From Nostoc sp. CENA543 (GTDB taxonomy: Bacteria > Cyanobacteriota > Cyanobacteriia > Cyanobacteriales > Nostocaceae), in the NCBI RefSeq assembly GCF_002896875.1, contig NZ_CP023278.1:3658001-3722000 (forward strand): a stretch of DNA of 64,000 nt, read 5' to 3'. A program made the position numbers and the translations under genes. This document shows, piece after piece, positions 1-13,050 of the stretch; position 1 is the stretch's first letter, and each line of letters starts with the position of its first letter. The notes beneath the pieces are model-generated. The model saw only the letters and a list, made by a program, of their open reading frames with translations. It did not search any database and was not told the origin of the DNA.

Positions 1-2102
1 AGGGCTTGTTGATAAACTTCTGTATCTTCCTGTTGTAAAGAAAGTTGGGCGGCTAGTTGTAAATCTTCAATGGCTTTGGTGTATTGGGGGTCAGATTTAT
101 TACCTGTTAGTTGCACAATTTCATAGCGCACCATCCCCCGTTTGAGGTAAACTTTGGCGAGTTTGTCGTTAATTTTTAAGGCTTGGTCAAAGTCAACTAT
201 CGCCTGTTGGTATTGTTGCACAGAGTTGTTACTATATTGGGCGATTTGATAGCGGACAGAACCACGTTGAAAATAAGCTTCGGATTTAGCGGCGTTGAGT
301 TTCAAGGCTTGGTCAAAATCTGCGATCGCTTCTTGATATTCTTGGAGCGTATCGCTACTGTATTTAGCAATTTGGGAGTAAACAATCCCTCTTCTGATAT
401 AGGCTTCGGCTTCTTTGTCGTTGAGACTCAAAGCTTGGTTAAAATCTGCGATCGCCAGTTTATATTCTTTATCGGGGTCGTTGCTATATTCTGCCATCAT
501 ATAGCGTGCATTGCCTCGATTGACAAAGGCTTTGATTTCCTGGGGATTCAGTTGTAATGCCGCACTGTAGTCTGCTAGCGCGCCTTCGTAGTCTTTGAGA
601 TTGTAACGAGCATTACCCCGATTTACATAGGCTTTGCTGTTGTTGGGTTCTTTTTGGATGGCTTGGGTAAAGTTGTCTGCCGCCTGTTTATAGTCTCGCA
701 CTTGGTAAGCTGCATGACCTTGCTGGTAATAATCAGCAAAACTTAAGGTAGGAGGATTAACATTAGGCTGTGTAATTAAGCTTTGCTGGGCATAATGATT
801 CCGTGACACCAACGGACGGGTTAATTTCATCATCACATCTAAGTATCCCAATACCCCAAACCCCAACAAGCAACAGACTACAGGATATAGTCGCTTTCTC
901 AGACGGCGGCGTTTTGGTGCAGCACTAGGGTTAGTGGATGGCCAGTTGCTTTGGTATAAAGGCATGACTGGCAATGGTAAACCAATAGGTTGCGTCGGTG
1001 GAGAGTAGCGTCTTTTTTTGGTGGTGGTACGGGGGCGTAAATGTTCTTTTCTTTCTATCGCCTGCACGGAAGGGAAAGGATCTCTACCACCCAAGCGGAC
1101 TGATCTTTCACACCAAGGACAACTATGGAGGTGATTACTGTAGCGATGCTGGTGATTCGCACTACAAACAGTCAAAGAGTCTTCCGCTTCTGCGAGGGCG
1201 GATAACCAAGCTTGAGCTGTAGGACGCTGTTGGGGGGCGTAATGTCCATCCTCAAAGCACTGCACAAACAGTTGTTGCAATCGAGGATGCAGAATTTCCC
1301 AAGGTGGGGCAATGGGTGTAGGCAGATAAGGGACTTTGCGCTGTTGACTGTAGGTGAAATGTCCAGCCGCAATTCTGGCTTCGTAGGGTGGTGGTTCAGC
1401 AACGCCTTGGTAAATCCCAGAGAAAGGATGTGTACCTTCCATTAATAATTGGAAGATTAACACCCCTAAGCCAAAGACATCATGACTTAAATCGCGATCG
1501 TGGTGAGCAAAGATTTTATTCTGTAACTCTGGGGGTGTAAATTCCGGTTTACCCACCGGACACCGATACACCATATCGTTTTCTGAGTCACGCACTTGGA
1601 AAGAATCCGTATCTACCAAGGTAACTAAGGCTGTGTCACTAACGAGAATATTCGACTCATTGACATCGCCTACACAGTAACCACTATTATGTAAAGCGGC
1701 AAAAGCCGCCGCTAAGTTGCGAGCTGTCCGCAGCAAATACTGATAATTAAACAACGGGCAGTGTTGGCGGCGAGTTCTGGGGTTGTAAAAGTCAATGATG
1801 GGACGCATTCCCCGAATGCGGGGCATTAAAAATCCCACAATGCTTTTACTGTCATCCGTCCCCCACAATAATTCCTGTGGCCAGGCAATGGAAATATGCC
1901 CCAGATTTGCCGTTGGGTTTTCCGGTGGGTTAGCCAGCATCGCCCGTAGTTTATGGGCATGAGCGACTGTTGATTTGTGATAAACCTTAGCGACTAAATC
2001 ACCTGCGGATGGTACAGCATAAATACAAGCTTCACCACCGCGCCCCAAACTGACGCTAAGACTGAGAATTTCTTCCTGGGGAAGATAACGTAGTACCTTC
2101 AT
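1..2102 (-). CDS. Atypical Ser/Thr protein kinase with zinc-knuckle, TM segment and TPR repeats (3' end cut by window edge)
   Basis: Reading from ATG at 2102 there is one open frame of 700 codons that runs off the left edge, so the C-terminus is missing. Residues 1-300 form a kinase fold: glycine-rich loop LGRGGEACIY (19-28), Lys39, and a catalytic loop GDVNESN with Asp146 and Asn151. The usual HRD is VGD and the usual DFG is DTDSF (164-168). This DxDSF variant is typical, from memory, of the YegI-like kinases. A Cys/His cluster ending in CPWC (313-331) looks like a zinc knuckle. A basic stretch and one hydrophobic segment (406-420) follow, then at least five TPR units from about 455 of the form AxxxxxRGxxRY. 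The gene lies downstream of a PP2C phosphatase and a VWA protein on the same strand, so it is probably the kinase of a VWA/PP2C/kinase triad. Kinase activity is inferred, and the altered HRD and DFG motifs leave it open. Confidence 0.88.
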   Translation of the reverse strand, partial: MKVLRYLPQEEILSLSVSLGRGGEACIYAVPSAGDLVAKVYHKSTVAHAHKLRAMLANPPENPTANLGHISIAWPQELLWGTDDSKSIVGFLMPRIRGMRPIIDFYNPRTRRQHCPLFNYQYLLRTARNLAAAFAALHNSGYCVGDVNESNILVSDTALVTLVDTDSFQVRDSENDMVYRCPVGKPEFTPPELQNKIFAHHDRDLSHDVFGLGVLIFQLLMEGTHPFSGIYQGVAEPPPYEARIAAGHFTYSQQRKVPYLPTPIAPPWEILHPRLQQLFVQCFEDGHYAPQQRPTAQAWLSALAEAEDSLTVCSANHQHRYSNHLHSCPWCERSVRLGGRDPFPSVQAIERKEHLRPRTTTKKRRYSPPTQPIGLPLPVMPLYQSNWPSTNPSAAPKRRRLRKRLYPVVCCLLGFGVLGYLDVMMKLTRPLVSRNHYAQQSLITQPNVNPPTLSFADYYQQGHAAYQVRDYKQAADNFTQAIQKEPNNSKAYVNRGNARYNLKDYEGALADYSAALQLNPQEIKAFVNRGNARYMMAEYSNDPDKEYKLAIADFNQALSLNDKEAEAYIRRGIVYSQIAKYSSDTLQEYQEAIADFDQALKLNAAKSEAYFQRGSVRYQIAQYSNNSVQQYQQAIVDFDQALKINDKLAKVYLKRGMVRYEIVQLTGNKSDPQYTKAIEDLQLAAQLSLQQEDTEVYQQA

Positions 2103-2127
2103 GATCAATCACGGTTAAGGGTTTATT

Positions 2128-2217
2128 GGGGACTGGGGACTGGGGACTGGGAACTGGGCATTATTTCTGTTTTCCTACTCTCCCTGCTCCCTTGCACCCT
2201 GCTCCCTTGCCCCTTGC
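2128..2217. repeat. Heptameric STRR-type repeats
   Basis: The spacer between the kinase and PP2C genes holds about four tandem units of GGGGACT/GGGAACT, followed by CT-rich units such as CTCCCTTGC. These are short tandemly repeated sequences of the kind common in heterocystous cyanobacteria. No promoter or terminator can be recognised in them. Confidence 0.7.
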
Positions 2218-2218
2218 T

Positions 2219-2995
2219 TTACAAAAGGGCAGCTAAAATCAGGGTTAAGTCGTCATCAGTACGTTGGGTAATGCGCTCAGAGCCTAAAAACTTCACTAAC
2301 TGTTCTTTTGCTTCCGTTTTATCTTCTGTTTTTTCCACAAAATCGAATAAAGGCAAAAAGAACGGTTTGTGAGGTTCGCCAACAACCATATTCAAAGCCA
2401 GCATTTGTAGTCCATCGGTGAGGACTCCAAGATTTACTATGGCTTCACGCCACAGTCTCATTTGCGCTGTCTCTAAAGCACCTGGTGAAGTCAAAAAAGT
2501 CGTCTCGTTAATATATTCGCCGTTATTGGGGATGGTTAGGGCTAGTAAGTTGCCCATGCGATCCTTTGCTACTGCTAAACCATCACCAATTTGCACAGCT
2601 GCGACCATTTCTGGGGAGGCGATCGCAATAATTAAGGTAGTTGCTAAATCCTGGGGCTGTTTTTGACAAGCCGCCGCTTCATCTTCCACAGCTTTTTTCG
2701 CGGCTAGTAAGGCATCAGTTAACAGCCATTGCACTGTTTCATCTTCAGCTAAGGAGTCTTTAGTTATATTTTTCAGCGAAAGGTTTTCTATGGCTGTTTC
2801 TACAGCTACCATCGCACCGACTTTCCCTTGGCTGGCAGAACCCGCACCATCTGCGGCGGCTGCTACTAACACGTTATCAGGCAATAGTTGCCAGTGGTGG
2901 GCATCCTGACACAGCTGCTTATTTTTGATGTGGCTTGTACCACAGACAGAGGCGGCGACTACCTGCCAATGAGGGTTCTGTTTTGATGTTTTCAT
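2219..2995 (-). CDS. PP2C-type protein phosphatase
   Basis: A 258-residue protein with the metal-dependent PP2C signature: CQDAH near residue 29, AAADGAGSAS near 46 (first metal aspartate), QIGDG in the middle, LTDGL, and a C-terminal DDDLTLILA. The length fits a bare catalytic domain with no sensor or membrane part. It sits between the VWA gene and the kinase gene on the same strand with spacers of 110-180 bp filled with repeats, so co-transcription is likely but not proved. Its likely job is to dephosphorylate the partner kinase or a shared substrate, by analogy with YegK and other TerY-P triads. The family assignment is firm. The substrate is unknown. Confidence 0.85.
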   Translation of the reverse strand: MKTSKQNPHWQVVAASVCGTSHIKNKQLCQDAHHWQLLPDNVLVAAAADGAGSASQGKVGAMVAVETAIENLSLKNITKDSLAEDETVQWLLTDALLAAKKAVEDEAAACQKQPQDLATTLIIAIASPEMVAAVQIGDGLAVAKDRMGNLLALTIPNNGEYINETTFLTSPGALETAQMRLWREAIVNLGVLTDGLQMLALNMVVGEPHKPFFLPLFDFVEKTEDKTEAKEQLVKFLGSERITQRTDDDLTLILAALL

Positions 2996-3047
2996 ATATT
3001 TGTTCTGTCAGCTAGCTGTGAAAGTGTCAAGCCGCAATCTAGCTAGA

Positions 3048-3177
3048 AAGGGGGGTAAGGGTTTAGGGGTGTAAGGGTATGAGGGTGTAAGGGTAAAAAG
3101 ATTTTCATGTTTGATGAGCAAGCATTATTTCTTTTTACTTTTTACTTTTACCTTTTACCTTTTGCCTTTTGCCTTTT
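3048..3177. repeat. Two runs of heptamer-like repeats between VWA and PP2C genes
   Basis: The first run (about 3051-3100) is built of GGGTGTAAGGGT-like units. The second (about 3130-3177) is built of TTTTACC/TTTTGCC units ending at the VWA stop codon. They match the STRR style found elsewhere in this window. Confidence 0.6.
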
Positions 3178-3852
3178 CTAGATAGAACCCCAGCCAATTG
3201 GCGGTAGTGCGATTTGCTCATCTATCTGCGAATGGGAAACTGCCGACATACTAGCCGATAACCAAACAAACATTTCAATAAAATTCAGCCCTTTGAGTTT
3301 TAAAGGTGTGCGGACGGCGATTTGATTGAGGCGCATCATATTCGCGTTTTCTACACCCACGCTAAAAAAGGCTACACGTTTATTTGCTTCATCTCCTTGC
3401 AAACGAATTGCCGCTTGCTCGACTAAATGATCTAGTTCGCCTTGTGGCTCTCCATCAGTAATCATAAAGACCCACGGGCGATAATAGGCGATACCATGAG
3501 CGCGATACAAAGATTTACGCTCCTGCACCATATCTAAGGCTTTATGAATACCTGCACCCATACTAGTTAATCCTTGGGCTGTCAAAATCGGCGGATTAAA
3601 TTGATCGGCGGTGACAAAATCTTGCACTACATTGATATGACTATCAAAGGTGACGATCGCAATTTCTACTCGTCTGGCTGCTATGGAATTTTTGACTAAT
3701 TCATCTTTCAAACTCAGCAAGCCCTGGTTAAGAGCTTCTATGGCATTACCTTGCATTGAACCAGACGTATCAAGTAACAACACACAAGGACAACGTGGTT
3801 CTGGATTCTCTGCAAATTCTACTACTTCATCTAGGGTTAATGTATCACTCAT
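3178..3852 (-). CDS. VWA-domain protein, TerY-like
   Basis: A von Willebrand factor A domain protein. The MIDAS motif DTSGSM lies about 28 residues from the start, followed by a threonine-containing loop (GLTSMGAG) and ITDGEP, which complete the metal site. Its length of 224 residues with no extra domains fits TerY/YegL-type proteins. The start chosen is ATG at 3852 (MSDTLTLDEVV). A TTG at 3879 is in frame and has a better purine-rich stretch upstream, so the protein may be 9 residues longer. It is first in a minus-strand set with the PP2C and the kinase. In known triads the VWA protein is thought to be the scaffold or substrate. That role is inferred here. Confidence 0.85.
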   Translation of the reverse strand: MSDTLTLDEVVEFAENPEPRCPCVLLLDTSGSMQGNAIEALNQGLLSLKDELVKNSIAARRVEIAIVTFDSHINVVQDFVTADQFNPPILTAQGLTSMGAGIHKALDMVQERKSLYRAHGIAYYRPWVFMITDGEPQGELDHLVEQAAIRLQGDEANKRVAFFSVGVENANMMRLNQIAVRTPLKLKGLNFIEMFVWLSASMSAVSHSQIDEQIALPPIGWGSI

Positions 3853-3879
3853 AACGTTTTGTGTTATGTTATAGTCCAA

Positions 3880-4357
3880 AGCTCTATTTTCCTTTTTTCA
3901 AAGTATATATTTTCCACAGTGGAAGCCAAAAAAATTCATGGTAGATGTTTGATGGTAGCTGATCTAATCTTCATTCAACAAAGCATTTTCACCGCAATTT
4001 CTACATCTTTAATGAAATCTTAATCAGGATGCAGATAAAATAGTGAATGGTTCACATTGGAGACATTAATCTATCTACCGAAATTTATATAGAGCAAACA
4101 TAGAATATAATAAATATTTCCCATTTGCCTACATGAATTTTTAAAGATTTTGTGTGGGATTTTTATTTTTCTATATAGAAATAAAATTTTTCAAGTATCT
4201 CTATCAGCATGACAAAAAACTCGTTGTAGCTAAGATAACTTAAAAATAAGAATAGTCAAGAAAGTAAGCATTTTTACAAATTATTGCTAATTACTCAGAC
4301 AAAAAATTTAGAAAATTTCCCTCCTATTTCCCATTCTTTGTTTGTTCTCTATCAAAT
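3880..4357. other. Divergent intergenic region
   Basis: About 480 bp of AT-rich sequence between the divergent VWA gene and the PatA-like regulator. It must hold the promoters of both. A TAAAAT hexamer near 4036 could be a -10 box, but no convincing -35 goes with it. No ORF, repeat or RNA was recognised. Confidence 0.4.
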
Positions 4358-5749
4358 ATGAATCATTCTGGTACATTTACCACACTACGTCCTCAGAGTT
4401 TATTAAGACAACTAGCGAGTTGTTTAGACACCACTTGTTTACAAGCTATGAGTAACTTTGTTACTTGGTCAATTTATCTAGAAAATGGCACAATCACCTA
4501 TGCGACTCATACAGTAGAACCATTTGACAGATTAGAACGTCATTTGCGTCGCCTCAGTCAACAATTTCCCTTAGTCACTCCGCAGGTGCGTGTCCAGTTA
4601 CGCTTGCTATTTGAAACTGATTTATACAAACAAATTAACGAGCAGCAAGATTCTGATATCATTCAGCCACCAGATTATCAAGCGATTCGATGGTTAATTA
4701 ACCAGAAATATTTAGATCAGCAACAGGCTACAGTATTAATTCAAGAATTAGTCAAAGAAGTTATTGAGTCATTCTTGCTCATTAATACTGGTAATTATCA
4801 ATTAAGTGATTCATCACAAAAGTTACCTGTCATTTGTCGCTTAGATACCACAAGAGTCATAGAACGTTGTCAAAAGAGATTGCAAAATTGGCAGACTTAT
4901 TTACCAAAATTTACTTCTCCATATCAGCGTCCCTATTTGTTGCTAAATCATACAATCCCTGGTAAAACTACTCCCGAATTGCAACCCCAATTAACTTACT
5001 GGATGAAGGGTTTTAGTCTGCGTCATCTCGCTATCATTATGAATCAAGATGAAATGCAACTAGCACAATATTTATACCCTTACATCATTGCAGGGGAGAT
5101 TATTTTACATGAACCAGATCCGCCATTTGATCAGTTACCCAAAGTGGTGACAGAATTACCAGAAGCTCCTGAATATACAACAGCATTGTTAGAGAAAAAG
5201 TTAGTTGAGACAGTTGTAGAACTCAGTAGCAATGCTACTCCTATCACCCCAATTGTAGAGATCGAAAATGTGGCTATTGTCAAGCGATCGCAGATTTCCA
5301 CTTCTACAACAGCAACCAACAAAGAACTAAATAACACGAACTCTTCTCCTGAAAGAGTAATTCCCGCTACCGTTACTCCAGAAAAACTCTACAAAATCGT
5401 ATCTGTAGATGACAGTCCCACAATTTTAAAAGAAATTAGTTATTTTTTAGAAACAGAAAACTTCACTGTCATTACCATTAGTGACCCCTTAAAAGCGGCG
5501 ATGTCAATTATTAGACACAAGCCAGACTTAATTTTATTAGATTTGAATATGGCGGGAATTGATGGTTATGAATTGTGCCGGATTATCCGTAATAATTCGA
5601 TGTTTAAAAATACGCCGATTATTTTTGTTACAGGCTATAAAGGCATAGTAGATAAAGTCAAAGCCAGATTAGTAGGTGCGTCAGGATACCTAACTAAACC
5701 ATTTACCCGTGCGGAATTGTTGAAAATGGTGTTTATGCACTTGACGTGA
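4358..5749 (+). CDS. PatA-family response regulator (PATAN domain plus C-terminal receiver)
   Basis: 463 residues. The N-terminal 1-90 or so resembles the PATAN domain of PatA, PixG and TaxP1-type cyanobacterial regulators (S/F-rich start, then LRQLASCLDT and a short strand-turn-strand WSIYLENGTITYA). A helical middle follows, then a Ser/Thr-rich linker (290-340). Residues 345-463 are a complete CheY-like receiver with acidic pair Asp351/Asp352, phosphoacceptor Asp395 in LLDLNMAG, and Lys447 in LTKPF. There is no DNA-binding output, so it probably acts by protein contact. PatA controls heterocyst pattern and relatives control motility. Which process this copy serves cannot be told. No sensor kinase is adjacent. 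Confidence 0.85.
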   Translation: MNHSGTFTTLRPQSLLRQLASCLDTTCLQAMSNFVTWSIYLENGTITYATHTVEPFDRLERHLRRLSQQFPLVTPQVRVQLRLLFETDLYKQINEQQDSDIIQPPDYQAIRWLINQKYLDQQQATVLIQELVKEVIESFLLINTGNYQLSDSSQKLPVICRLDTTRVIERCQKRLQNWQTYLPKFTSPYQRPYLLLNHTIPGKTTPELQPQLTYWMKGFSLRHLAIIMNQDEMQLAQYLYPYIIAGEIILHEPDPPFDQLPKVVTELPEAPEYTTALLEKKLVETVVELSSNATPITPIVEIENVAIVKRSQISTSTTATNKELNNTNSSPERVIPATVTPEKLYKIVSVDDSPTILKEISYFLETENFTVITISDPLKAAMSIIRHKPDLILLDLNMAGIDGYELCRIIRNNSMFKNTPIIFVTGYKGIVDKVKARLVGASGYLTKPFTRAELLKMVFMHLT

Positions 5750-5764
5750 TAGGGATTGGGGACG

Positions 5765-5820
5765 AATCAATTCAAAATTCAAAATACCTTTACAGGAAGC
5801 AAGCTACAAAATTCAAAATG
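5765..5820. repeat. Dispersed repeat, copy A
   Basis: The reverse complement of this segment matches about 54050-54119 almost base for base, except that the other copy carries an extra 23 bp. It includes ATTCAAAATTCAAAAT units and the core AAGCAAGCTACAAAATTC. Confidence 0.65.
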
Positions 5821-5946
5821 AAGAAGAGTTGGGGACTGGGGACAAGGTAGACAAAGAAGAATTTATTTCCTAACTCACGCCTGATGTGAATTAGAAAAAC
5901 CTTAGATATCCAAAAAATAGCCGATGCTGGGAGCTAATGAGACTCG

Positions 5947-6009
5947 GTAGGGGCGGGTTAATCAAATATCATGAACAATTAACGATGATCTCGGTGAACC
6001 CGCCTCTAC
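5947..6009. repeat. Small inverted-repeat element
   Basis: Arms GTAGGGGCGGGTT (5947-5959) and AACCCGCCTCTAC (5997-6009) are complementary at 12 of 13 positions around a 37-nt centre. A related element with GGGCGGGTTTTGA and TCAAACCTGCC arms lies at about 12898-12957, so this is a dispersed palindromic repeat. It lies just beyond the stop codon of the PAD gene and could act as a terminator, though no T run follows. Confidence 0.6.
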
Positions 6010-6035
6010 AAATGTTTACTCCCCACTCAGCACTC

Positions 6036-8033
6036 TTAACTAAAAAACGTATCCTCAATCTCCCACCATTTTTGGGTAAAAGGTTGGCGACGTGTATTAG
6101 TTCCGCAATGAATTTCGCCTCGTTTGCGGAAGTAGGGTTCCCAATCATCGATAAAGTGACAAACTAAACCCCAAGGTTCTAAAACTTGTCGTACATAAGC
6201 CTCAAATTGACATTGATGATCCAACTTCGGCCCAAATGGTTTGGGAATACCAAGGTGCTGATTAAGGACAATCATGTTAACCATATTTGGTAAAAAAGTT
6301 TCTGCTCTCCCATAGCCATCATCTCTAAATAAAGCAGGTAGTTCAATAATATCTTCGTCGCTTAATTCTAATTCTTGTTTAAGGATTTCTCGATTCCAAT
6401 TAATGTGTTCTTGAAATTGTTGATTTTGGTTAGTTAAATCTTGATTATCAAGAATGTCTGCAACAGTAATATCGGCTGGTTTTCTGTCGAGTTTTTTGCC
6501 TTCTCTTAATAATAATTGACCATGACCTTGCTCTCGTAGATGCTTGAGAATGTTATGAGCTTGGTGGGGACTGGCTAATAGTAATTTAAATCCTTTAGCG
6601 GTAGGCGCAGGAACAAATGTCATAAACTCATCAATATGTCCTACACTCAGCCAGTCCGAAAAGATTTCTAGGGGTGCTTGAATTTTTTGAGCATAGAGAA
6701 AATCTCGCAATACTCTTAACATCCGCCGTGGTTCGGGGATAATATCCTTGCGAGTGCCGCCGAAAATCAACCGCCCCAAGGGATAGTGAACACCTTTAAC
6801 TGTAACTGGCGGAGAAACTTCTAAATTGCCAAAAGAGTCTAATTTTGTGGCTAAATAGCGACTCTTACGGGTGAGATAACCAAAGTCAATTCCTAATAGT
6901 TTGCGTTTAGGAAATTCTGCGAGTCCGCGATCGCGTGGAGAATCAAAGACGACGGGAAGTAGATGTCCTGGGGCTTGAGTGTAACCAATTTCAATCTCGT
7001 CTTGCACCCAGGGATCATCTTGATGAAACTCATAGGGGATAATATCAAGTTGGGCGTTGGCTTGAGCAACAACTTTTCTCAGTTCATCAATAAATTCTTT
7101 GTTCTCGCCACTAGATAACCGTGAAACAAATACTGTAATTGGCGATAAAGTATTAGGAGTCATGATCCAAGGTGCAACTCGAAATACTACGCGATCGCTA
7201 TACACAGATTTACCATCTTTGACCAGGCTTAAACTAATTTCAACTAAGCCGTCAAAATCAAAATCAGGATAACTCAATCCTTCAATGGCTAAAATAATAT
7301 CCCGATCAGTATCCCTAATTCTCGCTCTAGAAATACCAGGGCCAATTAACTCATAGCCGTCTCGATCTAATTCATCATAAATGCGAATGCGTTGGGCAGT
7401 ATCTTTACTAACTGATAACTCTAGTTCATATCCAGCAGGTAAATTTCTCAACCCAGCTTTACGCACAATCATGAAGCTAAAATCTTTCAGGTCAAGTAGT
7501 CCTTGAATTAAACTCGCTTCGTGATCACTCCGACTATCAGAATAGACGATATCGCGATCGCTATTCACTAATAAAACTGCACCATGACCATTACTTCCCC
7601 ATTCCCAATCACTTTTATGGGGGTTGTTAGCTTCAATAATCCCGTCTCTATCAGCATCAACATCAAGACAAACTTGCACCGCCGTCAAATCAATCCGCAA
7701 TTGTTTGAGCAGACTACCATGATCATCTTGAAAAGTAATTTGTAAACTCCGGTCAGCAATCTGATCACTAAAGGTTCTAGCTAGGAGATAAATTTGCGGA
7801 ACTTGTGTGAGAAACAAGGGAGTTTGTGTAGAAATTGATTGGTGATGATCACCCAATAATTCTATTTCTCCTGTTGTTTTGAAAATCACAACTGTACTTT
7901 GTGGTGGAGCCAGTGTTTTTAAAGCAATTTGCACTAGTCTACCAACTACCAGTACATCTTCATAGTTACTGCTACGTTTTCTACTACTCAAGCGATGCTC
8001 ATCTAAGGCTGCCAATTCTAGTAATTCAGTCAT
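6036..8033 (-). CDS. Peptidylarginine deiminase (animal-type PAD)
   Basis: A 665-residue protein that would convert peptidyl-arginine to citrulline in a Ca2+-dependent reaction. It carries all three parts of the vertebrate PAD architecture. Residues 1-115 are a cupredoxin-like N-domain. Residues 118-290 are an immunoglobulin-like middle domain with acidic Ca2+-binding signatures (DVDADRDG, then WEWGSNGHGAVLLVNSDRD). The C-terminal catalytic domain spans 295-665. Active-site residues are present: Asp345 in WVQDEIEIGY, His466 and Asp468 in VGHIDEF, and Cys643 in IHCGTN. These fall within a few residues of human PAD4 Asp350, His471, Asp473 and Cys645. There is no signal peptide, so it is probably cytoplasmic. 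The gene stands alone between divergent or unrelated neighbours. Cyanobacterial PADs have been proposed as the source of animal PADs. Function is assigned from sequence only. Confidence 0.92.
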   Translation of the reverse strand: MTELLELAALDEHRLSSRKRSSNYEDVLVVGRLVQIALKTLAPPQSTVVIFKTTGEIELLGDHHQSISTQTPLFLTQVPQIYLLARTFSDQIADRSLQITFQDDHGSLLKQLRIDLTAVQVCLDVDADRDGIIEANNPHKSDWEWGSNGHGAVLLVNSDRDIVYSDSRSDHEASLIQGLLDLKDFSFMIVRKAGLRNLPAGYELELSVSKDTAQRIRIYDELDRDGYELIGPGISRARIRDTDRDIILAIEGLSYPDFDFDGLVEISLSLVKDGKSVYSDRVVFRVAPWIMTPNTLSPITVFVSRLSSGENKEFIDELRKVVAQANAQLDIIPYEFHQDDPWVQDEIEIGYTQAPGHLLPVVFDSPRDRGLAEFPKRKLLGIDFGYLTRKSRYLATKLDSFGNLEVSPPVTVKGVHYPLGRLIFGGTRKDIIPEPRRMLRVLRDFLYAQKIQAPLEIFSDWLSVGHIDEFMTFVPAPTAKGFKLLLASPHQAHNILKHLREQGHGQLLLREGKKLDRKPADITVADILDNQDLTNQNQQFQEHINWNREILKQELELSDEDIIELPALFRDDGYGRAETFLPNMVNMIVLNQHLGIPKPFGPKLDHQCQFEAYVRQVLEPWGLVCHFIDDWEPYFRKRGEIHCGTNTRRQPFTQKWWEIEDTFFS

Positions 8034-8641
8034 AAGATTAATTGAGTTTATCTTGCTATAGAACAGACTTCAACTAACTAAACCACCTTAATCGCTTTGA
8101 AACCACTTGGAGGATTTGTTGATTTTTTTTAGAAAAATGAAATATTGCTAAATCTACTGATGTGGTCTCACTGATCCTATACTAATTTCAAAAATTGATA
8201 ACAATTTGATTAATAAATTTTTCTGATACAAGTAGCCATCATGAACCGCGTACACAAGAAGACATGAAAAAGTCTTTCCCTCACACCCCTTTTTCAATTT
8301 AGATATACCACTTATCCCTATTTATGATCACGAACAATCCACAATAATTTTTAATATACTTAATTGATTTTATACACTCTACCTGGAGTGACGCACTTTT
8401 GGGAAAAACCCTCTCTTTCTCAATCAGCACTTTGTTCTTATGTTTAAATGTGGCAGGAAAAGCCTATTTACTAAAGTCTTAATAGAATGCTAATATTTTA
8501 ATTAAATACACTAAATTGATAAACTTATAGTAGATTGCAATGTATTATCAACTTAGCTAACACAGCATTAGGACTAATCAGCTTAATATTTCACATGGTC
8601 AAGTGTAAAAATCTATGTTGTAATTTTTATTTCAGCACACG
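8034..8641. other. Intergenic region upstream of PAD gene
   Basis: About 600 bp of AT-rich DNA between two divergent genes. Only short, uncharacteristic reading frames were found. No repeats, RNA motifs or clear promoter boxes were recognised. Confidence 0.35.
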
Positions 8642-8824
8642 ATGATCTATTGGCGAAAACCTTTAACTAGGAGATTTGCCAGTCAAAAGTATTTACTATC
8701 AGTTACTTCTATAAAATTGCTGGGAGTGTTTATTACTGGTTTAATCTTCAGTTTTTTATTTACCGTTAAGGAATTGATGCTATTACCTGAGCAATACGCC
8801 GCTTTTTCACCTAAAATTCCATAA
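8642..8824 (+). CDS. Possible small membrane protein
   Basis: A 60-codon frame ending 9 bp before the nitroreductase start. The product is basic at the N-terminus (RKPLTRR) and has one hydrophobic stretch at about 24-45, so it could be a single-pass membrane peptide. No family is recognised and there is no clear Shine-Dalgarno sequence. It could equally be leader DNA of the downstream gene. The close spacing is the main argument for it. Confidence 0.3.
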   Translation: MIYWRKPLTRRFASQKYLLSVTSIKLLGVFITGLIFSFLFTVKELMLLPEQYAAFSPKIP

Positions 8825-8833
8825 TTTGTAATT

Positions 8834-9655
8834 ATGACTAATCCTACTGATTTACTTCATCGCCGCTATGGTGTAGACGCATTTAATGCAGATATTCCTT
8901 GGAATGAGACAATATCTAATTTGCTCTCTCACCGTTCCATCCGCGCTTACCTGAGTGATCCTCTACCAACAAACACTCTGGAAACTTTGATAGCAGCTGC
9001 ACAATCAGCATCTACTTCTTCTAATCTCCAGACTTGGAGTGTAGTTGCTGTTCAAGATACGACACGCAAAGAGAAGTTATCACAGTTGGCGAATAACCAA
9101 GCTCATATTCGCCAGTGTCCTTTATTTTTGGTGTGGTTAGCAGATTTGGCAAGATTAACATACATTGCGGAAAATCAAGGATTACCCCATGAAGGTTTGA
9201 ATTACCTGGAAATGTTTCTGATGGCGGCTATTGATGCCACATTAGCAGCACAAAATGCTGCGATCGCTGCTGAATCTTTGGGTTTGGGAACAGTCTACAT
9301 TGGTGCATTACGTAATCGTCCAGAAGCAGTAGCAGAGGTTTTGAATTTACCACCCCATGTTGTTGCGGTGTTTGGGTTATGTGTGGGTTATGCAGATTCA
9401 TCTATTAATGTAGAAGTGAAACCACGTTTACCCCAAGCGGCGGTATTACATCGGGAGACTTATCAGTTAGAAACACAAAAACAGGAAATTGAACTGTATA
9501 ACCAAATCATGAAACAATTTTACAGTTCTCAACAGATGAATGTTGGTGGTGATTGGTCAGAACATTCAGCTAAACGCATAGCATTTCCTGAATCTCTATC
9601 GGGACGCGATCGCCTGCGAGAAGCCTTGAACAATCTGGGGTTTGAATTGCGTTAA
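8834..9655 (+). CDS. NfsA/FRP-like nitroreductase (FMN-dependent NAD(P)H oxidoreductase)
   Basis: 273 residues with the nitroreductase fold. HRSIRAYLSDPLP near residue 32 holds the FMN-phosphate-binding arginines, and AAQSASTSSNLQTWSV near 56 is the second FMN loop. GLGTVYIGALRN near 155 and a C-terminal KPRLPQAAVLHRE are typical of the NfsA subfamily. Such enzymes reduce nitroaromatics, quinones or flavins using NADPH. The true substrate here cannot be read from sequence. It may be co-transcribed with the small frame upstream. The next gene converges on it. Confidence 0.85.
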   Translation: MTNPTDLLHRRYGVDAFNADIPWNETISNLLSHRSIRAYLSDPLPTNTLETLIAAAQSASTSSNLQTWSVVAVQDTTRKEKLSQLANNQAHIRQCPLFLVWLADLARLTYIAENQGLPHEGLNYLEMFLMAAIDATLAAQNAAIAAESLGLGTVYIGALRNRPEAVAEVLNLPPHVVAVFGLCVGYADSSINVEVKPRLPQAAVLHRETYQLETQKQEIELYNQIMKQFYSSQQMNVGGDWSEHSAKRIAFPESLSGRDRLREALNNLGFELR

Positions 9656-9682
9656 CAAAGTGCTTTTAGCATTGCATGGGTA

Positions 9683-9711
9683 TGGGATGAATTTAAACAC
9701 AAATCATCCCA
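9683..9711. terminator. Possible bidirectional terminator hairpin
   Basis: TGGGATGA (9683-9690) and TCATCCCA (9704-9711) are a perfect 8-bp inverted repeat with a 13-nt AT-rich loop. It lies between the converging nitroreductase and SDR genes. No T run follows on either strand, so it is a weak candidate. Confidence 0.3.
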
Positions 9712-9742
9712 CTAACTCATAGCACCGAATTTTGAATTGATC

Positions 9743-10492
9743 TTACCGTTCTTGCTGAGTCGGTCGAATCAGAATTTCATTCACATTCACATGGGGTGGC
9801 TGAGTTACCGCATAGGCGATCGCATTGGCGATATCTTCACTTTGCAGTGGTGTAATGGCTTTTAATCGTTCTTCAACATTTTTCTTCGCTACGGGATCGG
9901 TGACATGATTGTTGATTTCCGTCTCCACCAAACCAGGCTCAATCACCGTGATACGGATGTTATCTTTTAACACTTCCTGGCGTAATGCTTCGGAGATAGC
10001 ATTAACTCCCCATTTAGTGGCATTATATATCCCAACACCTGCACGAGCTATGCGTCCAGCTACTGATGAGATATTGACGATGTGACCACTACCTTGGGCT
10101 TGGAAAATGGGTAAAACAGCATGGGTAGTATAAAGCACACCAAAAACATTGACATCAAACATTCGCCGCCAGTCAGCAGTGTTACCGCCAGCAATATTAC
10201 CAGTTAATGCCACACCTGCATTGTTCACTAGAATATCCACTCGTCCTAACTCTGCATTTGTTTTGTGGATGAGGTTGTTAGCTTGGGTTTCGTCGGTAAC
10301 GTCAGTCACAATAGGTAAGGCTTCACCACCATTTTCAGTAATGCGTTTTGCTAATGCAGTCAAGCGATCGCCTCTTCTGGCTGCAATCACTACTTTGGCT
10401 CCTTCTGCGGCTAAAGCGATCGCTGTAGCTTCTCCAATTCCTGAAGAAGCACCGGTAACAATAGCTATCTTATTCTCTAGTTTACTTGTCAT
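9743..10492 (-). CDS. Short-chain dehydrogenase/reductase
   Basis: 249 residues of classical SDR. The cofactor site TGASSGIG is near residue 14, with AARRGDR after the second strand, which suggests NADP(H). LVNNAGVA is near 87, and the catalytic set is Ser in NISSVAG plus YNATK near 155. The overall pattern, with IEPGLVETEINNHV and a C-terminal VNEILIRPTQQ, resembles YdfG/clavulanate-dehydrogenase-like SDRs that reduce aldehydes or 3-hydroxy acids. The start is the ATG of MTSKLENK. Another gene on the same strand lies about 300 bp upstream behind its own terminator, so this gene probably has its own promoter. Confidence 0.88.
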   Translation of the reverse strand: MTSKLENKIAIVTGASSGIGEATAIALAAEGAKVVIAARRGDRLTALAKRITENGGEALPIVTDVTDETQANNLIHKTNAELGRVDILVNNAGVALTGNIAGGNTADWRRMFDVNVFGVLYTTHAVLPIFQAQGSGHIVNISSVAGRIARAGVGIYNATKWGVNAISEALRQEVLKDNIRITVIEPGLVETEINNHVTDPVAKKNVEERLKAITPLQSEDIANAIAYAVTQPPHVNVNEILIRPTQQER

Positions 10493-10684
10493 AATTTACT
10501 CCTGAATCATTTACAATGCCATACTTTAGGAGGATTGATTTCATTTTTTGAATCTATAAATTTGTGTTTATCTTAATTATTTATGCTTGGCTAACTTACC
10601 TAGTTAATCATAAGAAATTAAGAAAAATATGGCAATTAATTATGATTATTTGAGGTTTAGTAAATTAAGATTCCAGATGTCAAC

Positions 10685-10718
10685 AAAAAATATAGGCATA
10701 TTCCTCAATATACCTATA
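10685..10718 (-). terminator. Rho-independent terminator of the thioredoxin-fold gene
   Basis: Read on the minus strand, TATAGGTATATT, loop GAGG and AATATGCCTATA form a 12-bp stem with one G-U pair, followed at once by TTTTTTG. It lies about 75 bp beyond the stop at 10791, which fits termination of that gene before the SDR gene. Confidence 0.7.
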
Positions 10719-10790
10719 TTTATCAACAAATGAGGAAGGTGAAGACTAGAGAAATATTCTAATTCAAGAACAGGAAGTAGTAAGGATTCT

Positions 10791-11390
10791 TCAAACTGCG
10801 ATCGCTGGATTTTGGAAATATAGAGGTTCATTTCCTGGCTTCCATTTGATGTTACAACCAATGCTAGGTTTCTGCTCTCGGTCTACATCTCGACCAGCTA
10901 AAACAGCTGCGATCGCAGCCCGCAAATCTTTGCCAGTTACAGGGATACCATTTTGCGGACGGCTATCGTCTAACTGTCCACGATAGACAAGTTTGCGGTT
11001 TTCATCAAACAAAAAGAAGTCAGGAGTACAAGCAGCAAAAAAATCTTTAGCCGTCTTTTGTGTCTCATCAAATAGCAGAGGATAAGTTAAATCTAATTCC
11101 TGTGCAAAAACTTTTAAAAATTCCGGTGCATCATCGGGATGAGTATTAACATCATTGGCACTAATCGCCACAATTCCCAGGTTACTTTGTGCATAGTCCT
11201 TCCCTAGTTGAGCTAATTCCAACTTAATATGCTGCACAAAAGGACAATGGCGGCTCAAAAATATGACCAACAAAGCTTTCTTATGATCGAAATCTGAGAG
11301 ACTAACTATCTTACTAGAAACCACATCCGGTAAATAAAAATCAGGTGCTAAAGTACCCAAAGGTAACATTGTCGAAACAGTTCTCACCAT
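10791..11390 (-). CDS. Thioredoxin-fold (AhpC/TSA-like) redoxin
   Basis: 199 residues with a redoxin fold: LGTLAPDFYLPDV at the N-terminus and FLSRHCPFVQHI near 45. The latter gives a single CPF cysteine rather than a CxxC pair. AISANDVNTHPDD follows in the middle, then TPDFFLFDENRKLVYRGQLD and a terminal SIGCNIKWKPGNEP. This pattern belongs to a conserved thioredoxin-family group related to one-cysteine peroxiredoxins and found in many bacteria. Its reductant and substrate are unknown. The dioxygenase gene is 72 bp upstream on the same strand, so the two may be co-transcribed. A terminator follows the gene. Confidence 0.8.
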   Translation of the reverse strand: MVRTVSTMLPLGTLAPDFYLPDVVSSKIVSLSDFDHKKALLVIFLSRHCPFVQHIKLELAQLGKDYAQSNLGIVAISANDVNTHPDDAPEFLKVFAQELDLTYPLLFDETQKTAKDFFAACTPDFFLFDENRKLVYRGQLDDSRPQNGIPVTGKDLRAAIAAVLAGRDVDREQKPSIGCNIKWKPGNEPLYFQNPAIAV

Positions 11391-11462
11391 AAAACATCAA
11401 TCCTTACTTAAATCCTGAAACTTTGCGTACCTCTGCGTCGCTTTGCGTTCCTAAAACAGAAC

Positions 11463-12377
11463 TTAAACAGCTACAGCTAGACGCTTGTTATAAGCCGAAG
11501 CATCTCCTTTGATAGCCTGACTCTGTTTACCATCAATACCAACCGGAATATCACCCACAATAGTGACTCTCTGCACACGACGAGGTTGATTACCATAATC
11601 GGCAATAGCATAGTGTTGAGTGGCGCGATTATCCCAAAATGCCACATCGCCCACTTTCCAACGCCAACGCACCGTATTCTCAGGACGTGTCACATAAGAC
11701 TGCAACAGTCGGATAATATCATCAGATTCAGTGGTGGATAATCCCCGAATCTGACGCACAAACCCACCGATAAATAATCCCCGTTCTCCAGATTCAGGAT
11801 GCACTCGCACTACTGGGTGTAAAGTCTCATATACAGTTGATGTAAAAACTTTGCGATAGGCTTTAAGTTCATCAGACAGATTAACTGCTGCTTCTGCATA
11901 GTCATAGGCGTTGCTATGAACAGCCCAGAGTTCATCTGCAATTCTACGCAGGTGTTCTGGTAAATCTTGATATGCCGTTACAGAATTAGCCCAAATAGTA
12001 TCGCCACCATAGGGAGGAATTTCCAAGGCTCGTAAGACAGAACCCAGAGGAGGACGGTCTACAAAAGTTACATCAGTATGCCAATTATTTGCACGAGCAG
12101 CAGTTTTCCCATAATCTAAGTCCAAAACCTCTGGATGTTCTGTCAAAGATGGAACTGTCGGATGCGCTGTAGTTATTTCTCCAAAACGGCGCGCAAAAGC
12201 TACTTGTCCATTAGCATCAAGGTTTTGATTACGGAAGAAAATTACCTTGTATTGGATGAGAGCCTGACGAATTTCGTGGATAATGTCGTCACTAAGATTT
12301 GCACTCAAATCAATTCCTAAAATTTTCGCGCCAATGCGTCCAGCAATTGGTTTAATTTCCAAATGTTGATAAGTCAT
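11463..12377 (-). CDS. TauD/AtsK-like Fe(II)/2-oxoglutarate dioxygenase
   Basis: 304 residues, normal for TauD-family enzymes, which release sulfite or sulfate from taurine, alkanesulfonates or alkyl sulfates. The Fe(II) triad is visible as His100-x-Asp102 (WHTDVTF) and His255 (NRATQHYA). Arginines 266/267 or 270 are the likely 2-oxoglutarate contacts. NNWHTDVTFVDRPPLGSVL and GGDTIWAN recall alkylsulfatase AtsK, so alkyl sulfates may be the substrate. The gene lies within 2.2 kb of SsuB and SsuC, which supports a role in sulfur scavenging. A GGTGGG-GAGTA-CCCACC hairpin sits in the leader about 40 bp before the start. Confidence 0.87.
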   Translation of the reverse strand: MTYQHLEIKPIAGRIGAKILGIDLSANLSDDIIHEIRQALIQYKVIFFRNQNLDANGQVAFARRFGEITTAHPTVPSLTEHPEVLDLDYGKTAARANNWHTDVTFVDRPPLGSVLRALEIPPYGGDTIWANSVTAYQDLPEHLRRIADELWAVHSNAYDYAEAAVNLSDELKAYRKVFTSTVYETLHPVVRVHPESGERGLFIGGFVRQIRGLSTTESDDIIRLLQSYVTRPENTVRWRWKVGDVAFWDNRATQHYAIADYGNQPRRVQRVTIVGDIPVGIDGKQSQAIKGDASAYNKRLAVAV

Positions 12378-13050
12378 CGTTCATCCCCAGTCATATAAGT
12401 TTTTTCATTAAGTGAAGGTGGGGAGTACCCACCATTGGCGTAAATGTCAGTGAGGGAGAGCATCAGGTACAAAAATTGATATTAAGCGCGGTTATTCGTC
12501 GCTCAGTATGTTTTGCTTGTTGTTCAAGCTGTCCATCTGGTGTGTTTGTGGTGTACTGCTACTAGAACAGTAAATACTGTTTGTCTATCGTTTTATCGTG
12601 GATTAGCTCTATATTATTACACAGCACTATTCACAGCACAAGTGCTTAGGCAATAAAATATCTGGGCAGCAAAATCTCAGGTTATCTAATTATTAGTTAA
12701 TCTAATATAAAAATCATCTCCCTAGCATTGCAGCAATTAATGGGCAACAAGAACTTAAGTTACACTATACCTTCTTGCCGGATTATATTTAGTATGCTAA
12801 CTTTATGAATAACTAAATTTAAGTATTGCTAAAGTTATGCGAAAATTGCTAAAGAAGTAGTTCAAGTAGCTAACTAATTTTAGGTTTTTGATTTGTAGGG
12901 GCGGGTTTTGAGAGACATTCATGTTGGCAAAACAAATATCTTTTCAAACCTGCCTTGACTTTAGATTCAATCCAAAATTTAAAATCTAAAATTCGGATGG
13001 TCAATTTTTCAGCCAATTAATAGTTTTCAGTCCTTTCTCGGAAAATACTG
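12378..13050. other. Divergent intergenic region with hairpins
   Basis: About 670 bp between the divergent dioxygenase and MFS genes. It holds a 6-bp perfect hairpin (12417-12433) in the dioxygenase leader. It also holds an imperfect palindromic repeat of the GGGCGGGTT type at about 12898-12957 and short AAATTTAAAATCTAAAAT repeats just after that. No ORF was recognised. Promoters for both genes should lie here. Confidence 0.45.

Follow-up and report, generated by a model that had tools for sequence, protein, structure and literature searches.

An intact three-domain, animal-type protein-arginine deiminase gene in the cyanobacterium Nostoc sp. CENA543

Overview

The stretch of Nostoc sp. CENA543 DNA analysed here (the window; 64,000 nucleotides, contig NZ_CP023278.1, positions 3,658,001 to 3,722,000) encodes a complete animal-type peptidylarginine deiminase (PAD or PADI), as judged by its domains, catalytic residues and position in a protein tree, and by homology the protein should citrullinate arginine side chains. 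It is a further member of the published three-domain cyanobacterial PADI type. We hold with good confidence the reading, taken as a whole, of a cytosolic, Ca2+-gated enzyme encoded by a solo accessory gene that would have its own promoter, be exchanged horizontally and sometimes lost, and come into action when Ca2+ rises. Nostocaceae include tractable laboratory strains, and an intact orthologue in a genome of this family makes knockout and citrulline proteomics feasible. Citrullination in animals, central to neutrophil traps and autoimmunity, has been proposed to stem from such cyanobacterial genes; the initial annotation mentioned this proposal, which is already in print in Cummings 2021 (PMC8826395).

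The gene and its domains

Positions 6036-8033, to which the initial annotation assigned the gene but no strand, hold exactly one intact open reading frame of 665 aa on the minus strand with no internal stops, while the plus-strand frame across the same interval has many. The features of the gene are as follows.

6036..8033, minus strand: three-domain protein-arginine deiminase gene (P0001), 665 aa (ORF, Pfam, phmmer against the PDB, tree, structure model and Foldseek)
7680..8033, minus strand: N-terminal beta domain, residues 1-118, at the place of PAD_N, which is cupredoxin-like in PADs (model, Foldseek, phmmer match to PAD4)
7218..7679, minus strand: PAD_M, residues 119-272, with Ca2+ sites 3, 4 and 6 (Pfam PF08527, 9.6e-46; ligand columns)
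6060..7205, minus strand: PAD catalytic domain, residues 277-658 (Pfam PF03068, 4.5e-157, 523.5 bits against a cut-off of 25)

The resemblance to PADs is far from chance. A phmmer search of the PDB returns human PAD2 (1.3e-164), PAD3, PAD4, PAD1 and PAD6, so that the nearest solved relatives are the human enzymes, and the alignments cover residues 88-659 for PAD2 and 28-659 for PAD4, in line with the collinearity with vertebrate PADs described from the sequence at the outset. An hmmscan run at a maximum E of 1 lists nothing beyond PAD, PAD_M and a Crr6 match put down to chance; PAD_N is not found. The initial annotation had named a grouping with agmatine deiminases as the outcome that would count against its reading. 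Such a grouping is unsupported: the same scan gives no Pfam match to the PPAD or agmatine deiminase families, and Cummings 2021 (PMC8826395, section 5) treats pPAD and gADI as types separate from PADIs.

An AlphaFold2 model built from 32 rows, the two-domain lineage described below included, reached a pLDDT of 82.6 and a pTM of 0.79, and one built from 16 close relatives only was poor (pLDDT 49.8). The structure prediction and superposition proposed initially give PAD2 structures as the best Foldseek matches, with 4n2n at 41% identity, a TMq of 0.84 and a TMt of 0.85 over 664 columns, gaps included, these being whole-chain scores rather than per-domain ones. Residues 21-120 are predicted to form a beta domain (block pLDDT 86-93) and, since this domain is confidently modelled and the match to PAD2 spans 664 columns, the protein very probably has a PAD_N-type third domain at its N-terminus that is invisible to Pfam. 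This is consistent with the clade of cyanobacterial three-domain PADIs whose N-terminal domain is unseen by Pfam (Cummings 2021, PMC8826395).

The gene is the sole PAD match in the 7.2 Mb genome. Throughout, L-numbers denote loci, G-numbers genomes and WIN the window gene. Its closest relative, L012 from Nostoc sp. CMAA1605, is 96% identical, and dN/dS is 0.143 against L012, 0.126 against L013 and 0.18-0.21 in three further three-domain pairs, so the gene looks to be under purifying selection.

Active site and calcium ligands

Residues were compared in an alignment that set the window protein beside 18 other three-domain and 18 two-domain cyanobacterial proteins, two Streptomyces proteins and residues 85-663 of human PAD2; the residue counts and the PAD tree leave out L024 and L057, both broken, and L028, whose frame is partial. 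The window protein and PAD2 are identical at 260 of 565 aligned residues, and the catalytic set named from the sequence at the outset aligns with that of PAD2, each residue being the same in 18/18 other three-domain sequences.

6999..7001, minus strand: catalytic Asp345 (PAD2 D351)
6636..6638, minus strand: catalytic His466 (PAD2 H471)
6630..6632, minus strand: catalytic Asp468 (PAD2 D473)
6105..6107, minus strand: catalytic nucleophile Cys643 (PAD2 C647)

The Ca2+-binding middle domain recognised at the outset is likewise borne out, both by the PAD_M match and by its ligand residues. Kept in the window protein are Q344, E348, F401, L404 and E405 in the Ca1 columns; E346, D364, S365 and D368 in those of Ca2; N157, D159, D161, D170, D181, D184 and D383 in those of Ca3 and Ca4; and D126, D128, D130 and E134 in those of Ca6. 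E251 also falls in a PAD_M Ca2+ ligand column, and D383 is the counterpart of the D389 switch. In PAD2, F407, L410 and S370 also count among the Ca1 and Ca2 ligands, position 349 is Gln rather than Glu, and Ca6 has further positions besides D125 and E131. These two Ca6 positions are named in PMC8826395; the Ca3-Ca5 positions are from PMC3559651, and Glu349, Glu353 and Glu411 for Ca1 and Glu351, Asp369 and Asn373 for Ca2 from PMC13023937, PAD4 residue numbers being moved by one for PAD2. The switch residue is thus present, as are the residues of Ca2+ sites 1-4 and 6. Most ligands of these five sites are kept in 16-18 of the 18 three-domain relatives, with Q344 being Arg in six of the 18. At Ca5, PAD2 D169 is replaced by A173; the matching PAD4 variant, D168A, keeps its kcat according to PMC3559651.

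Kinship with animal PADs

The kinship with animal PADs put forward initially is upheld by a 40-row protein tree, in which human PAD2 and the 19 cyanobacterial proteins of the three-domain type join at 100/99 and 18 two-domain cyanobacterial and two actinobacterial sequences are set apart from that clade. The 19 cyanobacterial rows by themselves reach only 89/85. With a single animal sequence (PAD2 residues 85-663), and with long branches meeting, as the tool warned, this tree cannot show the direction of transfer between cyanobacteria and animals. In Cummings 2021 (PMC8826395), such cyanobacterial genes are proposed as donors of animal PADIs, and the purified three-domain orthologue of Cyanothece sp. 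8801 (cyanoPADI) is reported to be active and absolutely Ca2+-dependent.

Distribution and probable horizontal movement

PF03068 matches occur in 24 of 386 sampled cyanobacterial genomes, seven of them three-domain (>490 bits) and 17 two-domain by score. No genome has both types (0/24), in agreement with the statement of Cummings 2021 (PMC8826395). Among 40 relatives, the own genome included, 11 carry a PAD, eight three-domain (one broken) and three two-domain.

PAD, rpoB and alaS trees were compared in 18 genomes (L020 is not in the marker trees, and G414, with alaS in two full copies, is represented by the better match). In both marker trees the window, L012 and L013 are joined by L017, L018 and L019 (81/93 and 97/98), while the PAD tree places the latter three with L014, L015 and L056 (100/100). 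This PAD clade of six is rejected by rpoB (p-AU 3.05e-38) and by alaS (5.79e-06), a second PAD clade (L021, L022, L027, L058, L025 and L026) is also rejected by rpoB (3.37e-05) and alaS (1.75e-98). In turn, the PAD data reject the six-row (2.32e-46) and the four-row (8.12e-84) grouping of rpoB. The two markers agree on the disputed groups and differ elsewhere, several alaS forks being open. Distances point the same way, that between L019 and L014 being smaller for PAD than for rpoB (0.132 against 0.169) and that between the window and L019 larger (0.241 against 0.141).

The conflict of the PAD tree with both marker trees suggests that the PAD gene has moved between related cyanobacteria, and it seems to have been exchanged horizontally alone. 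Duplication followed by loss of the other copy is an alternative with which single copies are still compatible, but the presence of one PAD match per genome in 18/18 marker-tree genomes is evidence against hidden old paralogues. All three trees agree on how the window, L012 and L013 group, and transfer is not seen on the window's own recent branch. The published claim that the cyanobacterial PADI phylogeny mirrors the species tree (Cummings 2021) is qualified by the disagreement of PAD with both markers.

Broken three-domain genes were observed in G011 (L006/L024, one TAA) and G043 (L036/L057, at least one stop), and from these copies it appears that the gene is also undergoing loss. Among 72,556 plasmid records only four Streptomyces or Embleya matches, 25-26% identical, were found.

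A two-domain lineage, with one family lacking the catalytic cysteine

Family f2 has the two-domain PAD lineage in 57 of its 61 genomes, and f10 has it in 13 of 14. Catalytic residues were counted in 70 two-domain sequences (56 from f2, 12 from f10 and two others), leaving out G431 and G473, whose genes are in two pieces. The D-H-D-C set is kept in all 14 sequences outside f2, whereas the Cys is absent in 56/56 f2 sequences (loci L042-L052, L137-L162 and L172-L190), where it is Ser in 38, Asp in 13, Thr in two and Met, Ala or Leu in one each, the Leu row being unreliable. A single change accounts for the loss in a tree made by a quick method from 55 f2 rows; L190, with a seemingly frameshifted C-terminus, is in the count and not in this tree. 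Most f2 frames span 750-920 aa, and eight pairs have a dN/dS of 0.08-0.36. These proteins therefore look maintained and are probable pseudoenzymes, presumed inactive from their residues.

By a simple hydropathy measure, a hydrophobic N-terminal segment at the 1.6 mark is found in 61 of the 70 two-domain proteins, several of the other nine being cut at locus or contig ends, and in none of the 19 three-domain proteins. It therefore seems that the lineages occupy different compartments, the two-domain one being seemingly exported. L168 and L070 carry lipobox-like LSGC/LGGC motifs. In L069 (9231-11954) a long, variable, charged repeat of the RQELERQE type lies between the anchor and the PAD domains and gives a sub-threshold match to the histone-like HC2 model of Pfam.

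Working from six sequences per group, Cummings 2021 (PMC8826395) states that every PADI homologue conserves all catalytic residues, a claim that the Cys-less f2 family limits; the terms Microcoleus, Oscillatori and "inactive" are absent from the main text of that paper. A review (PMC9174705) describes human PADI6 as likewise missing the catalytic Cys and regarded as dead, and no paper on a bacterial peptidylarginine deiminase pseudoenzyme was found in the open-licence PMC literature.

Neighbourhood and upstream region

The statement in the initial annotation that no partner gene is adjacent extends to relatives: in 28 PAD loci (22 three-domain, broken and partial ones included, and six two-domain) no family recurs beside PAD beyond synteny between close relatives. 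The most widespread neighbours, an ABC ATPase recognised by eye (8/28) and a response regulator (7/28), represent generic sharing. The flanks and a putative promoter in the window are as follows.

4358-5749: DUF4388 response regulator, PAD flank
8834-9655: nitroreductase, PAD flank
8172..8216, minus strand: putative own promoter, a TTATTAATCAAATTGTTATCAA block with a TATAGGAT -10-like box (upstream alignment and fuzzy scan)

A scan of seven neighbours reveals no arginine-metabolism gene. The nitroreductase gene is found again in relatives, and six stretches compared with window 1-12500 as candidate empty sites (L107-L112) match only the nitroreductase gene, L107-L109 additionally matching pieces of its upstream region (8444-8765); none of the six is a clean empty site. 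A row of genes at window 3-3879 on the minus strand, for a repeat-containing kinase-like protein, a PP2C phosphatase and a vWA protein, lies beside PAD and is kept in L012; we take it to be similar to TerY-type triads. In L063, from a close relative, a 745-aa frame (about 6623-9243) separates PAD from the response regulator, two genes that are adjacent in the window.

L062 and the window share similar DNA only at 6055-8227, that is, the gene and 194 bp upstream. In a 10-row alignment, both the TTATTAATCAAATTGTTATCAA block and the TATAGGAT box recur upstream of WIN, L012, L013, L014, L015 and L056. Upstream scans covered 18 three-domain and three two-domain genes. Among the 18 three-domain regions, a fuzzy scan allowing up to four changes finds the block in the same six, and the box is found in WIN, L013, L014, L015, L017, L018, L019 and L056; neither is convincing in the other nine, and 4200 shuffled sequences give 96 matches to the box and 380 to the block. 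A sigma-70 scan yields nine sites against a shuffle mean of 9.6, the block/box site not being among them, and the promoter scan found no terminators. The window gene probably has its own promoter.

Mechanism and alternatives

By homology to PAD4, PAD2 and the assayed cyanoPADI, Ca2+ would occupy its sites in both the middle and the catalytic domain and the active cleft would form; Cys643 would then attack the guanidinium carbon of a peptidyl arginine, giving citrulline and ammonia, with Asp345 and Asp468 holding the substrate arginine and His466 acting as acid/base. The window protein itself is expected to be active and, from its N-terminus, cytosolic. Half-activation of PAD4 needs about 0.61 mM Ca2+ according to table 1 of PMC3559651. 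The enzyme would accordingly be silent at resting Ca2+ and modify cellular proteins once the cytosolic level rises strongly in stress, injury or lysis. Resting Ca2+ in bacteria, cyanobacteria included, is far below that value. Taken together with the absence of an export signal, the high requirement of PAD4 and the low resting level suggest action only in cells with a sharp rise. Neither the neighbour scan nor PADLOC finds a defence or stress context beside the window gene, so the trigger draws on the biochemistry of relatives, and we put it forward as a tentative proposal, somewhat less likely to be right than wrong. Among the matches listed, the open-licence PMC literature gives no physiological role for cyanobacterial PADs.

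A role in nitrogen metabolism, where cyanophycin or stored proteins are deiminated at their arginine side chains and ammonia is released, would suit an enzyme that acts on Arg side chains in organisms whose cyanophycin is Arg-rich, and cyanobacterial arginine catabolism is mentioned in the discussion of Cummings 2021 (PMC8826395). We consider it unlikely. Cyanophycin synthetase is above cut-off in 37 of the 40 relatives, but PAD is in 11 (eight three-domain), a profile without specific association; the exact NtcA palindrome GTAN8TAC is absent from the 400 bp upstream of the window gene, and the gene scan of the flanks gives this role no support either. One or two such palindromes do lie upstream of four of the 18 three-domain genes (L015, L023, L025 and L026), a count that carries no chance control. 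Slightly less probable still is defence or programmed death, with Ca2+ influx at infection or lysis leading to citrullination of essential Arg-rich proteins. A patchy, horizontally moved, solo gene whose product is proposed to be silent until Ca2+ floods in would fit such a role, but PADLOC has no match for PAD or for eight of nine flanking proteins, the kinase giving weak matches only (best 2.3e-11), and PAD is missing from 50,697 phage records and from a pattern scan of viral_contigs (0/4 candidates confirmed). That the enzyme is inactive or vestigial in Nostoc sp. CENA543 is very improbable: the gene is broken in G011 and G043, but here the four catalytic residues are all intact, as are nearly all Ca2+ ligands, and dN/dS is 0.13-0.14.

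The Ca2+-gated, solo three-domain PAD remains the preferred reading. A wider and rather doubtful extension of it would give cyanobacteria two PAD systems, one a cytosolic, Ca2+-gated three-domain lone accessory gene acting as a modifier triggered by damage or infection, and the other an exported two-domain protein that is near-universal and catalytically dead in f2, a bacterial parallel to PADI6.

Comparison with known systems

The closest known systems are cyanoPADI of Cyanothece sp. 8801 and the other clade Ai PADIs (PMC8826395), to which the window protein is alike in its three domains, catalytic set, animal kinship and Ca2+ sites, including the D389 switch (D383 here). The organism is different and the Ca5 ligand is Ala173, the likeness being drawn from the published description rather than from the Cyanothece sequence. 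With human PAD2 and PAD4 (PADI2, PADI4) the window protein has in common the catalytic and Ca2+ residues and a predicted fold that is alike over nearly the whole length (TM about 0.84 for PAD2); it differs in having no Pfam PAD_N match and in belonging to a bacterial host without histones. The two-domain PADs of cyanobacteria and actinobacteria have the Pfam PAD catalytic domain in common with it, but the cyanobacterial ones are only 24-29% identical to it over the alignment (n=18), have the Ca2 ligands E352 and D370 replaced in 18/18, carry a hydrophobic N-terminus in most cases and, in all f2 members examined, are without the catalytic Cys.
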